Shown piece after piece: positions 2,739 through 11,180 of a stretch of 11,180 bases of DNA. Under the pieces are notes generated by a model. It searched no databases. It was not told the origin of the DNA and saw only the letters and a program-made list of their open reading frames with translations. The stretch's first letter is position 1; each line of letters starts with the position of its first letter. This DNA is from Candidatus Acidulodesulfobacterium acidiphilum. GTDB lineage: Bacteria; SZUA-79; Acidulodesulfobacterales; Acidulodesulfobacteraceae. The stretch is taken from positions 1 through 11,180 of the forward strand of contig SHMQ01000018.1 of NCBI GenBank assembly GCA_008534395.1. The letters are read 5' to 3'. The position numbers were made by a program, and so were the translations under genes.

Positions 2739-3602
2739 ATGGAAACTTGGTTTTTTGAGAATCAGACCGGCAATTTTGGAATAAAAATTAGGGTTGAATC
2801 TATATTGTTTCATGAATTTTCGGATTATCAGGAGATTGCGGTTTACGATACTTTGGAATTTGGCAGGGTGCTTGTTTTAGATAAGGCGGTTATGTTTTCG
2901 GATAAAAACGAGTTTGTATATCATGAAATGCTTGGTCTTGTCCCTTTATTTTCGCATAAAAAACCTGAAAGAATTCTTATAATAGGCGGCGGCGACGGCG
3001 GCGTAGTCAGGGAATGCCTCAAAAATCCTTTCGTTAAACACATAGACCTTGTTGAAATAGATAAAAAAGTAATCGACGTTTCCAAAAAATTTTTTCCTGA
3101 AATCGCCTGCAAACTTGACGACAAAAGGGTAAGAATACTGGCGGAAGACGGAATAGCATTTGTAAAAAGAGTTAATTCCGGCGGCAGGGAAGACGAAAAG
3201 TACGATGTTATACTTATAGATTCTACCGACCCCGTCGGTCCGGCTGAAGGGTTGTTTAGGCGCGATTTTTACGAAGCTGCTTCCGGTTCTCTGAAAACCG
3301 ACGGAATATTTGCGGCGCAGACGGAATCTCCATTTTTTAATAAAAATTTAATTAAAGACGTAGGAAAAATTATAAGGGAAATTTATGAAAAATCATCGCT
3401 TTATCTGGCTTCTATACCGGTTTATCCCAGCGGTTTATGGAGTTTTACGGCAGGCTCCAAAAAATATGATACTAAAGTTATAAACGAAAGTTACGATAAT
3501 TTTGATTTTGCGGGTCTTGAGACTGATTTAAAATACTATTCCCGCGAAATACATTCCGCCTCTTTCATTTTACCTAACTTTATAAAGGAGATATTAAAAT
3601 AA
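2739..3602 (+). CDS. speE: Spermidine synthase (polyamine aminopropyltransferase)
   Basis: Transfers the aminopropyl group of decarboxylated SAM to putrescine (or a related amine), giving spermidine. The 287-residue length is normal for SpeE. Visible landmarks are the N-terminal beta domain with the YDTLEFGRVLVLD strand (36-48), YHEM (61-64), the glycine-rich cofactor loop GGGDGGVVRE (83-92), the acidic LVEID (104-108), AEDG (136-139) and the catalytic loop DSTDPVGPAEGLF (161-173), where D161 is the expected catalytic aspartate. A GGG 8 bases before the ATG is a weak ribosome site. speB follows after 9 bases, indicating one transcript. No SAM decarboxylase (speD) lies in the window, so the donor must be made elsewhere. 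In Thermus the homologous enzyme acts on agmatine, so substrate order is open. Confidence 0.95.
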   Translation: METWFFENQTGNFGIKIRVESILFHEFSDYQEIAVYDTLEFGRVLVLDKAVMFSDKNEFVYHEMLGLVPLFSHKKPERILIIGGGDGGVVRECLKNPFVKHIDLVEIDKKVIDVSKKFFPEIACKLDDKRVRILAEDGIAFVKRVNSGGREDEKYDVILIDSTDPVGPAEGLFRRDFYEAASGSLKTDGIFAAQTESPFFNKNLIKDVGKIIREIYEKSSLYLASIPVYPSGLWSFTAGSKKYDTKVINESYDNFDFAGLETDLKYYSREIHSASFILPNFIKEILK

Positions 3603-3611
3603 AAAAATTAT

Positions 3612-4490
3612 ATGATAGAAACCAACTTATCGAAAACTTCTTCATTTTTTAATTCGGCGGATTCTTATGAAAAGTCAGACTTAATTCTTCTCGGCGTTCC
3701 TATGGATTATACCGCAAGCAATATTCCCGGTTCAAGGTTTGCTCCTAAAAGAGTAAGGGAGTTGTCTTATACGTTAGAAAATTACAGTCCTTTTTTTGAC
3801 GATTTCATAGACGAAAAGTTTTATGACGCGGGAGATATAGTTCTGCCATGGGGCAATACCGATAAAAGCATTAAATTTATAGGAGAAACTGCAAAAGGAA
3901 TTCTATCCGACGGAAAAAAAATAGTAAGTATCGGAGGCGACCATTTGATTACTTATCCGGTAGTAAAAGAGTATGCCGAAAAATATAAAGATTTAGTGGT
4001 TCTGCAGTTTGACGCCCATACCGATTTAAGGGAAGAGTGGAATAACGAAAAATATTCGCACGCCACGGTTCTAAAACTTATTCACGATATTATCAAAAAA
4101 GGCAACCTTTATCAGTTCGGAATTCGTTCAGGCTCTAAAGAAGAATTCGATTTTGCTAAAAAACATTGCCATATATATAAAAACGACGTTTACGAACCTC
4201 TAAAAAAAGTTTTGGGCAATTTGTCTAATAAAGACGTTTATATTACTATAGATATAGACGTTCTAGACCCGGCGTTTGCGCCTGGAACCGGATACATAGA
4301 AGCCGGCGGAATATCGTCTAAAGAGCTTTTGGATTCCGTATCCCTTCTGCTGTCGGAATCAAATGTAAATATAGTAGGGGCGGACGTGGTAGAAGTTTGT
4401 CCTCCTACCGATAATTCGGACAGGACTTCGGCTATTGCGGCAAAACTTTTGAGGGAAATAATTATCGGAATGGCTAAAAATAAAAAATGA
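3612..4490 (+). CDS. speB: Agmatinase / ureohydrolase-family protein
   Basis: A binuclear manganese ureohydrolase of 292 residues, expected to split agmatine into putrescine and urea. The metal ligands are all present: GGDH (108-111, H111), DAHTD (134-138) and DIDVLDP (214-220), followed by the APGTG loop and the C-terminal EVCPPTDNSDRTS (261-273). The usual histidine after the DAHTD strand appears as SHAT (149-152). Agmatinase is preferred over arginase or formiminoglutamase because pdaD, an agmatine-forming enzyme, lies next to it and speE precedes it. An AAGGAG lies inside the end of speE (3585-3590), but 21 bases from the ATG, farther than usual; translational coupling to speE may matter. 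In a Thermus-like route the same fold would hydrolyse aminopropylagmatine instead. Confidence 0.9.
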   Translation: MIETNLSKTSSFFNSADSYEKSDLILLGVPMDYTASNIPGSRFAPKRVRELSYTLENYSPFFDDFIDEKFYDAGDIVLPWGNTDKSIKFIGETAKGILSDGKKIVSIGGDHLITYPVVKEYAEKYKDLVVLQFDAHTDLREEWNNEKYSHATVLKLIHDIIKKGNLYQFGIRSGSKEEFDFAKKHCHIYKNDVYEPLKKVLGNLSNKDVYITIDIDVLDPAFAPGTGYIEAGGISSKELLDSVSLLLSESNVNIVGADVVEVCPPTDNSDRTSAIAAKLLREIIIGMAKNKK

Positions 4491-4595
4491 AATAAAAATA
4501 AAAAATCAACGGACAAATAAATTTAAGCAATAAATATTAAATAAGGCAAATTATTATACATTATTAAACAAACAAGTAAAACGGAGGTAATAACA

Positions 4596-5069
4596 GTGTT
4601 TGAAACACCCGATATATATACTCTGGCGGCAGGTACGTCGGAGGGAACTTCAAAATTGGGGGCATTCGATAATGCCATTTTAAAAGCGGGAGTCGGCAAT
4701 ACCAATTTAATAAAACTCAGTTCTATTCTTCCGCCGAAAGCGGTTTATAAAGAAAAAATAGTATATCCGAGAGGAGTGTTGGTTCCTATAGCATACGGCG
4801 CTATTACCAGCGATAAAAAAGGAGAAACAATTGCCGCCGCTGTGGCGATAGCCGTTTCCGTAGAAGACGGATTCGGAGTTATAATGGAATTTTCCGGCGT
4901 AACTTCAGCTAAAAATGCCGAGGAAACCGTTAGAAAGATGGCGGAAGACGCAATGAAGCACAGGAATATAGGAATTAAAGAGATAGTTTCTAAAAGCTCG
5001 GAGCATACCGTAGAAAATTTTGGATGCGCATTTGCTTCGGTTCCTATGTGGTATTCCAAACTGATATGA
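4596..5069 (+). CDS. pdaD: Pyruvoyl-dependent arginine decarboxylase
   Basis: A 157-residue proenzyme of the PvlArgDC family, which makes agmatine and CO2 from arginine with a self-generated pyruvoyl cofactor. The cleavage motif KLSSILPP lies at 40-47. By homology the chain is cut between S42 and S43, so S43 becomes the pyruvoyl group at the start of the large subunit. The preceding GVGNTNLIK (32-40) and E98 in the VIMEFSG stretch fit the family's active site. The GTG start is supported by GGAGG at 4583-4587, 8 bases upstream. It follows speB by 105 bases and supplies that enzyme's substrate. The family is most familiar in archaea, with scattered bacterial members; it is unrelated to the PLP-dependent SpeA. 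Confidence 0.95.
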   Translation: MFETPDIYTLAAGTSEGTSKLGAFDNAILKAGVGNTNLIKLSSILPPKAVYKEKIVYPRGVLVPIAYGAITSDKKGETIAAAVAIAVSVEDGFGVIMEFSGVTSAKNAEETVRKMAEDAMKHRNIGIKEIVSKSSEHTVENFGCAFASVPMWYSKLI

Positions 5070-9001: not shown

Positions 9002-9026
9002 ATACTTGACTAATTTAGTCAAGTAT
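9002..9026 (+). promoter_or_regulatory. IscR type-1-like operator (Rrf2-family palindrome)
   Basis: A perfect palindrome with arms ATACTTGACTA (9002-9012) and TAGTCAAGTAT (9016-9026) around a 3-base centre. Every position agrees with the IscR type-1 consensus as I remember it (half-site ATASYYGACTR, then W-rich centre, then YAGTCRRSTAT). IscR with a [2Fe-2S] cluster represses iron-sulfur assembly genes from such sites in Escherichia coli. The site overlaps the -35 box of the promoter in front of iscU. No iscR-like gene lies in the window, so the regulator must be encoded elsewhere. Confidence 0.82.
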
Positions 9027-9108: not shown

Positions 9109-9555
9109 ATGCCCGTATATTCGGAAAAAGTAATGGATCACTTTCAGAATCCAAGAAACGTAGGAGAAATAGAAAACGCCGACGGCGTAGGCGAACTCGG
9201 AAATCCTACTTGCGGCGATATAATGAAAATATATATTAAAGTCAAGGACGACAAGATTGAAGACGTCAAATTTAAAACTTTCGGTTGCGGAGCGGCTATA
9301 GCAACCAGTTCCATGGTAACGGAATTGGTAAAAGGCAAGACTCTCGAAGAAGCCGAAAAAATATCCAATGAAGCCGTAGCAGAAGCTTTGGACGGGCTTC
9401 CTCCGGTAAAGATGCACTGTTCAAATCTCGCCGCCGATGCGCTTCATCTTGCTATAGAAGATTATAAAGCCAGAAAAGAGGGCAAAGGACCTATAGGCAG
9501 GGTTGAAACGCCGGAACACGACGAAGACGAACACGACCTGCTTGAACAGGCGTAA
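9109..9555 (+). CDS. iscU: Iron-sulfur cluster scaffold protein, IscU/NifU N-terminal type
   Basis: A 148-residue scaffold on which [2Fe-2S] clusters are assembled. The three ligand cysteines are present: C35 in GNPTCGD, C60 in FGCGAAIA and C104 in KMHCSN. D37, the residue that makes clusters labile and transferable, is also kept. LPPVK (97-101), the motif recognised by the HscA chaperone in proteobacteria, is intact although no hscA is nearby. The tail after about residue 125 is longer than in Escherichia coli IscU and highly acidic (EHDEDEHD), with no NifU-type C-terminal Nfu domain. The ATG has a good GGAGG at 9098-9102, 6 bases upstream. It is first in the operon behind the IscR-like site, with a TusA-like protein and an IscS homologue following. 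Confidence 0.95.
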   Translation: MPVYSEKVMDHFQNPRNVGEIENADGVGELGNPTCGDIMKIYIKVKDDKIEDVKFKTFGCGAAIATSSMVTELVKGKTLEEAEKISNEAVAEALDGLPPVKMHCSNLAADALHLAIEDYKARKEGKGPIGRVETPEHDEDEHDLLEQA

Positions 9556-9627: not shown

Positions 9628-9852
9628 ATGGATTACGATTACGAACTCGATACTTTCGGTTTGATGTGTCCAATGCCGATTATGGAAGTTGCCGAGGAGT
9701 TTAAAAAAATACCGGACGGTTCGGTATTAAAAGTCACGGCGTCCGACGAAGGTATCATAGAAGATTTAAAGAGTTACTGCAAAAAAACAGGGCATGAATT
9801 TCTGTCCTACGAAATTAATTTGCCCGAATACGTAGTTTATGTTAAAAAATAA
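9628..9852 (+). CDS. TusA/SirA-like sulfur carrier protein
   Basis: A 74-residue protein of the TusA/SirA/YedF fold. The signature LDTFGLMCPMPIMEV puts the persulfide-carrying cysteine at C14 in CPMP (14-17), followed by the usual ASDEGIIEDLKSYCKKTGHE helix region. In the best-known system TusA takes sulfane sulfur from IscS and passes it on for tRNA thiolation; relatives serve sulfur oxidation and other relays. Here it sits between iscU and the IscS homologue, 72 bases after the first and 84 before the second. Given that the IscS partner seems to lack its PLP lysine, this protein may instead bring sulfur from another source (inference). GGGTGGT (9612-9618) precedes the ATG as a moderate ribosome site. 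A second cysteine (C50) is not part of the family motif. Confidence 0.9.
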   Translation: MDYDYELDTFGLMCPMPIMEVAEEFKKIPDGSVLKVTASDEGIIEDLKSYCKKTGHEFLSYEINLPEYVVYVKK

Positions 9853-9936: not shown

Positions 9937-11121
9937 GTGAAAATAATAAATTTCGACCATTTTGCTGCTACGAAAATGAGGCAGGAAGTAAAAGATGCAA
10001 TGGAGCCTTACTTTATGTCCGAATACGGCAATCCTCAAAGCATTCACACCTTAGGCGACGAACCGAGGGAAGCATTATCTAAAGCCAGACTGCAGGCCGC
10101 CGAACTTTTAAATGCTTCAAGCAATGAAGTCATATTTACGGGGAGCGGTTCCGAATCGAACAACCTTGCAATAAAAGGAACGGCTTTCGCGAAAATGGAT
10201 AAAGGCAAACATATAGTCGTTTCTAAAATAGAACATTTCAGCGTTTTAAATTCCGTTAAATCTTTAGCAAAACTGGGTTTCGAGTTCACCGAAGTTCCCG
10301 TCGACAAATACGGTTCGGTCGATCCGCAGGAAGTTAAAAACGCTTTAAGAAAAGATACGATATTAGTAAGTATCGGACAGGCATCTAACGAGATAGGAAC
10401 TATTCAGGATATCAAGGAAATTTCAAAAATAGTCCATGAGAACTCCGCTGCGTATATGCATACAGACGCAAATACTTCATGCGGTTTTACCGAAACCGAC
10501 GTTAAGGAACTCGGCGTAGATATGCTTTCTGCCGCACCGCACAGATTTTACGGACCCAAAGGCGTCGGTCTTTTTTATCTTAAAAAAGGAATACGCATAA
10601 TGCCTCTTATAGACGGGGGAATTCAGGAATTCGGCCGCAGGGCGGGTACAGAAAACGTGCCGGCCATTGCCGGAGCGGGAGTCGCATGCGAACTTGCCAA
10701 AAAAGAGCTGAAGGACAGGACGTCTTATCTTCTGCCGATTCAAAAAACCATCAAAGAAGGCGTGCTTAACAGCCTTGACGAAGTTTATTTAAACGGTCAT
10801 CCGGAAAAAAGACTTCCAAACAATCTCAATTTTGTCGTAAAATACATAGAGGGCGAGTCGATGCTTATGTGGCTCAACAATAATGGGATTATGGTCGCTA
10901 GCGGTTCTGCATGCACGTCTAAAATATTAAAATCTTCGCACGTATTAAGCGCAATCGGAGTCGACGCCGCTCTTGCTCAAGGCTCTCTTTTAATATCCCT
11001 CGGCGAGGACAATACCATAGAAGATGCGCAATATTTCGTAAAAGAACTTCCCTCCGTAGTTGAAAAATTAAGGAAAATGTCTCCTCTTTACGAAGAAGTT
11101 ATGAGACAGAATAAAAAGTAA
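9937..11121 (+). CDS. iscS: IscS/NifS cysteine desulfurase homologue lacking the PLP lysine
   Basis: A 394-residue fold-type I PLP-enzyme homologue of the IscS family, full length and undamaged. Kept features are FAATKM near the N terminus, SGSESNNLAIKG, H100 in EHFSV (which would stack on PLP), SNEIGTIQD, D177 in HTDA, GRRAGTENV and the loop cysteine C326 in SGSACTS. The Schiff-base lysine is not kept: the usual H-K-x-x-GPKG reads PHRFYGPKG, giving R203 (codon AGA at 10543-10545). The glutamine that follows HTDA is T180, and the arginine of the S-x-R-x-S-x-G motif is L352. Cysteine desulfurase activity is therefore unlikely. Archaeoglobus fulgidus IscS is a known lysine-less relative proposed to donate a cysteine ligand to IscU. 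GGAGG at 9927-9931 selects GTG 9937 over an in-frame TTG at 9925. Confidence 0.92.
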   Translation: MKIINFDHFAATKMRQEVKDAMEPYFMSEYGNPQSIHTLGDEPREALSKARLQAAELLNASSNEVIFTGSGSESNNLAIKGTAFAKMDKGKHIVVSKIEHFSVLNSVKSLAKLGFEFTEVPVDKYGSVDPQEVKNALRKDTILVSIGQASNEIGTIQDIKEISKIVHENSAAYMHTDANTSCGFTETDVKELGVDMLSAAPHRFYGPKGVGLFYLKKGIRIMPLIDGGIQEFGRRAGTENVPAIAGAGVACELAKKELKDRTSYLLPIQKTIKEGVLNSLDEVYLNGHPEKRLPNNLNFVVKYIEGESMLMWLNNNGIMVASGSACTSKILKSSHVLSAIGVDAALAQGSLLISLGEDNTIEDAQYFVKELPSVVEKLRKMSPLYEEVMRQNKK

Positions 11122-11139: not shown

Positions 11140-11180
11140 GGGCGCGTAACTCAGGGGTAGAGTGTTACCTTCACACGGTA
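11140..11180 (+). tRNA. tRNA-Val(CAC), 5' part, cut by the window end
   Basis: The acceptor 5' strand GGGCGCG, bases T-A, the D stem ACTC/GAGT around an AGGGGTA loop, one base, and the anticodon stem TTACC with loop TTCACAC and the returning GGTA are all in order. Positions 34-36 read CAC, which decodes the valine codon GUG. The sequence stops within the 3' anticodon stem, so T arm and acceptor pairing cannot be checked. It reads in the same direction as iscS. Confidence 0.88.

Follow-up and report, generated by a model that had tools for sequence, protein, structure and literature searches.

Cysteine desulfurases are regarded as the standard sulfur source in ISC-type Fe–S assembly. In E. coli, IscS is an active desulfurase with K206, Q183, and R354 and binds both IscU and TusA; the two sites are adjacent, partly overlap, and reach Cys328 (PMC11302665). 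IscS of Archaeoglobus fulgidus (PDB 4eb5, 4eb7, and 4hvk; 4r5f is a D-to-K variant) has, according to studies cited in PMC7585200, no lysine and is inactive as a desulfurase, and one of its cysteines ligates the IscU-bound cluster; the essential lysine is also reported missing from Methanosarcina acetivorans IscS1 (PMC7585200). The archaeal minimal Fe–S system SMS (SmsCB) assembles clusters with no cysteine desulfurase in the complex and can use sulfide (PMC12192291).

The window, i.e., the whole analyzed stretch of 11,180 nucleotides from Candidatus Acidulodesulfobacterium acidiphilum, ends with a gene for a full-length IscS/NifS homologue, preceded by iscU and then tusA (Table 1). Class V aminotransferase homology spans the full length of this protein (PF00266, 231 bits in a search of its own genome), and its TIGR03402 score of 445 bits is below the equivalog cut-off of 530.75. 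Alignment with E. coli IscS (sequence taken from its genome record; 39.1% identity; same fold, IscU partner, and loop cysteine) shows the changes K206 to R203, Q183 to T180, S203 to A200, and R354 to L352, while H104 (H100), D180 (D177), N155 (N151), and C328 (C326) are retained. The lysine site reads S-A-A-P-H-R-F-Y-G-P-K-G, with CAC AGA at 10540–10545. The original prediction of an arginine replacing the PLP lysine, together with loss of the glutamine after HTDA and of the SxRxS arginine, and with C326, H100, and D177 kept in an undamaged 394-codon frame, is borne out on each of these points.

Table 1. Features of the iscU-tusA-iscS locus (window coordinates).
Feature	Position	Strand	Basis or remark
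Perfect 25-bp palindrome ATACTTGACTAATTTAGTCAAGTAT, IscR/Rrf2-type operator candidate	9002..9026	+	chance expectation and family conservation
iscU, NifU_N scaffold; C-G-D, GCG, and HCS ligand motifs and LPPVK intact	9109..9555	+	above NifU_clost TIGR03419 cut-off
tusA, CPMP sulfur-carrier motif	9628..9852	+	in cluster in 26/27 family loci
Lys-less iscS homologue, 394 aa, GTG start	9937..11121	+	ORF, profile match, and homology to solved structures
ACT, Thr180, replaces E. coli Q183	10474..10476	+	alignment
AGA, Arg203, replaces PLP Schiff-base lysine (E. coli K206)	10543..10545	+	alignment to E. coli IscS
Cys326 of ASGSACTS, persulfide/cluster-ligand cysteine, invariant	10912..10914	+	alignment and family fixation
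TTA, Leu352, replaces Arg of SxRxS (E. coli R354)	10990..10992	+	alignment and family fixation

The A. fulgidus protein (sequence identical, letter for letter, to PDB 4eb5) is 46.6% identical to window IscS. In both, the PLP lysine and SxRxS arginine are missing and the loop cysteine remains, so the likeness in the original prediction holds; A. fulgidus IscS differs in being archaeal and in having Asp, rather than Arg, at the lysine site. M. acetivorans IscS1, compared here through the published report, shares the missing lysine and is likewise archaeal. SMS is alike in lacking its own desulfurase, but consists of unrelated SufBC-type proteins, and no SufB-type homologue is found in 30 genomes of Ca. 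Acidulodesulfobacterales. An AlphaFold2 model of window IscS, made with 13 family sequences, reached a pLDDT of 41.7 and was set aside; homology to solved structures is clear regardless. Given the loss of lysine, arginine, and glutamine, established chemistry makes cysteine desulfuration by window IscS very unlikely; PLP may still be bound non-covalently, since the pocket residues H100, D177, and N151 are kept.

The family (Ca. Acidulodesulfobacterales, bacteria of acid mines) is represented by 27 full-length orthologues (window included), 79–97% identical to window IscS. None of the 27 has the PLP lysine or the SxRxS arginine, and all have the loop cysteine: Arg occupies the lysine site (AGA in 16, AGG in 11), Leu is at position 352 (five codons used), and Cys326 is retained. 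Pairwise dN/dS of the family iscS genes is 0.03–0.09 (pairs with unsaturated dS). The arginine is thus not a lone change among lysine-bearing relatives, and its fixation together with the low dN/dS agrees with the earlier suggestion that the gene is selected for a role other than desulfuration and is not decaying. A sequencing error or a decaying pseudogene as the explanation of the missing lysine was considered and can be rejected: nothing found speaks for it, the same residue recurs in 27 separate genome assemblies and is encoded by two codons, the frames are open, and dN/dS is low.

A search of 385 genomes with a Lys-less relative as query, in which about 70 homologues were read, finds Lys-less IscS also in 18 genomes of 14 families, all outside the phylum of the window; the lysine site there is occupied by Q, T, H, S, G, V, or R. 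Among 80 sequences, the SxRxS arginine is absent from 25/25 Lys-less rows and present in 53/55 Lys-bearing rows, the Gln of HTDAxQ is lost in 20/25 and 0/55, respectively, and the loop Cys is present in all 80. The reservation that the glutamine and arginine changes might be general to the subfamily is therefore not upheld: loss of Arg is tied to loss of Lys, and loss of Gln mostly so. The five columns most relaxed in Lys-less compared with Lys-bearing sequences are Q183, M151, N155, K206, and H205, i.e., PLP/substrate positions and the neighboring M151; in the bacterial Lys-less set C328 is kept in 19/19, and S326, L333, and L380 are invariant.

In the tree, one clade unites all 24 bacterial Lys-less rows with two rows that bear the lysine but lack the arginine, and dropping 35 active-site columns as a check against circularity leaves this unchanged. 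These two rows (L099 and L136, genomes G392 and G126) keep the lysine, have lost the SxRxS arginine, and have an altered cysteine loop, SPGSTCTF; this sister lineage is a possible intermediate stage. The best trees place A. fulgidus IscS among Lys-bearing rows, although a single Lys-less clade including it is not rejected (AU p = 0.30). Being part of a broad bacterial Lys-less clade, window IscS is not an isolated bacterial instance. The idea that it might be a separate instance holds for the Lys-to-Arg state, but probably not for the lysine loss. The lysine loss was already known in A. fulgidus IscS and reported for M. acetivorans IscS1; the open-access literature yielded no description of the bacterial clade or of its link with TusA/DsrE (subscription papers lay outside the search), hence this part is apparently undescribed so far, its novelty being unproven.

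The family loci show two gene orders, iscU-tusA-iscS and iscS-iscU-tusA. The palindrome lies upstream of iscU in the former and of iscS in the latter; allowing 0–2 mismatches, 24/27 family loci have it ahead of the leading gene, and of the other three, two are contig ends. The chance expectation for a match to its core in the window is 0.01, and the perfect palindrome, as a predicted operator, supports the proposed control of the operon by IscR. In the sole locus without tusA, the cluster runs into the end of a contig. That three genes and one operator have stayed together despite rearrangement points to a single functional unit. As a module, the locus has an IscU-type scaffold gene adjoining an iscS homologue, this partner lacking the complete set of catalytic residues; no accessory genes HscA, HscB, Fdx, or IscA are seen within the 11,180 nucleotides. 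A separate case is genome G015 (L059/L018), where tusA and Lys-less iscS occur without iscU and without the upstream palindrome, though the contig continues; this genome, 86% complete, has no NifU_N match, reflecting either a real loss or an assembly join. In the metatranscriptome of Ca. Acidulodesulfobacterales, nifU and iscS/nifS, whichever nifS is meant, are among the top transcripts (PMC6776010); the nifU is probably the iscU gene of this operon. Elsewhere in the window, spermidine synthase-like, agmatinase-like, and pyruvoyl arginine decarboxylase-like genes stand in a row at 2739–5069, an apparent polyamine cluster judged from sequence alone, and at 11141–11180 the window breaks off within an apparent tRNA gene, truncated where the contig stops (ARAGORN reports no tRNA in the window).

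We also compared same-strand neighbors within 1.6 kb of 19 Lys-less and 33 Lys-bearing homologues. TusA neighbors are seen for 10/19 vs. 0/33 (Fisher p 6e-6), DsrE-like neighbors for 9/19 vs. 0/33 (p 3e-5), and IscU neighbors for 12/19 vs. 13/33 (not significant), these p-values overstating independence because most Lys-less rows belong to a single clade. The DrsE_2 and TusA assignments are confirmed by Pfam in the neighbor examples scanned. IscU pairing of Lys-less iscS is common, not universal: several Lys-less relatives have IscU and no TusA within 1.6 kb, and in branches f86, f92, and f108 DsrE and TusA adjoin the Lys-less gene with IscU elsewhere, so the role may differ between branches. 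The TusA tree, based on a short sequence and poorly resolved, lends no support either way to co-inheritance of the operon TusA with the other clade members. Among individual loci, L175–L177 (three genomes, two families) share the order NifU-C (Nfu-like), DsrE-like, Lys-less iscS, iscU, tusA, and a further gene, which in L175 is radical SAM by Pfam; in another Lys-less iscS cluster, a gene for a haem-NO-binding (HNOB) protein lies between dsrE-like and tusA (L181:4867-5385).

The genome of the window, listed as 100% complete, encodes a single NifU_N domain protein, the iscU product. NifU_N matches are found in 26/29 other family genomes, one each, except for one genome with the match split over two contigs; the three genomes without a match are listed as 59, 86, and 91% complete. 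SUFBD (the SufB/SufD homologue) has no match in 30 family genomes and matches in 14/14 control genomes. Because NifU_N is single in each genome where it is found and SUFBD has no match, the iscU operon encodes the only Fe–S scaffold of ISC or SUF type detected in the family. The genome has eight TusA-like matches and four to DrsE_2; the DrsE_2 matches all lie outside the iscU-tusA-iscS operon. A search for a second, lysine-bearing desulfurase finds one on contig C6 with Lys, Arg, and Cys kept, in a cysE-Rrf2-nifS-mnmA cluster; 20/20 further family genomes examined have such a desulfurase in the same cluster (mnmA unseen in three stretches). The Rrf2 protein of this cluster resembles IscR, with a score below the equivalog cut-off.

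Our preferred reading, to which we assign a probability of about 0.55, is that IscS here is not a desulfurase but a docking partner of IscU, whose Cys326 ligates the cluster and/or relays persulfide; the sulfur would most likely come from the co-encoded TusA, possibly along with sulfide. Window IscS would have lost the desulfurase chemistry (no PLP aldimine, no activity) and kept the fold, the IscU docking, and the mobile-loop cysteine, acting in assembly together with the one IscU that is detected in the cell; Cys326 would ligate the cluster and/or be a persulfide way-station. Since this scaffold is paired with an IscS missing the residues for taking sulfur from cysteine, sulfur probably enters by another route, from outside the IscS active site. 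TusA, the most likely source, could take its sulfur from the Lys-bearing C6 desulfurase or from dissimilatory sulfur metabolism. The chief alternative, free sulfide, may act alongside and does not exclude TusA. The reading as a whole is favored because the E. coli IscU and TusA sites reach Cys328 and because of the A. fulgidus precedent. The proposed direction is opposite to that in E. coli, where sulfur goes from IscS to TusA. The original prediction had taken the operon's TusA as a hint of where the sulfur comes from, and this is supported.

If the protein worked as in A. fulgidus, Lys-less IscS would only give a cysteine ligand to the IscU cluster, the sulfur being free sulfide and TusA serving another purpose. 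The same residue losses in A. fulgidus IscS, the prediction that these organisms are sulfate reducers and sulfide oxidisers (PMC6776010), and the use of sulfide by SMS (PMC12192291) are in line with this; however, it leaves unexplained why tusA has stayed in the cluster despite rearrangement and why tusA/dsrE genes accompany Lys-less, not Lys-bearing, homologues, and on the whole it seems unlikely. Direct loading of IscU by the Lys-bearing desulfurase, with the Lys-less protein as a regulator or docking platform, would draw on an enzyme intact in every further family genome examined; but its gene is beside iscU in no stretch seen, it is only about 36% identical to Lys-less IscS, the palindrome of the iscU operon is absent from its cluster, and adjacency to mnmA suggests a role in tRNA thiolation, which together make this improbable. 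Still less can be said for a weak PLP enzyme with Arg in place of Lys and PLP held non-covalently: the retained H100, D177, and N151 would suit it, but a Schiff base is impossible with Arg, the substrate Arg and Gln are lost as well, and in sister lineages the site is occupied by Q, T, H, S, G, or V, so that we regard it as highly improbable.

A non-desulfurase IscS supplied by TusA may have a wider counterpart. More tentatively, at somewhat less than even odds, throughout a broad bacterial clade the desulfurase-dead IscS would be an acceptor in a TusA/DsrE relay, with IscU clusters built from dissimilatory or inorganic sulfane sulfur, not from cysteine, and this would be the only general Fe–S system in Ca. 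Acidulodesulfobacterales. Automatic annotation as "cysteine desulfurase" is probably wrong for the Lys-less clade. The system offers an experimental handle on whether TusA/DsrE or sulfide can feed Fe–S clusters. In a whole bacterial family, the one IscU detected goes together with a predicted desulfurase-dead IscS and with a sulfur carrier. The lesion recurs in many bacterial families, which would make a testable, widespread design out of a few archaeal precedents.
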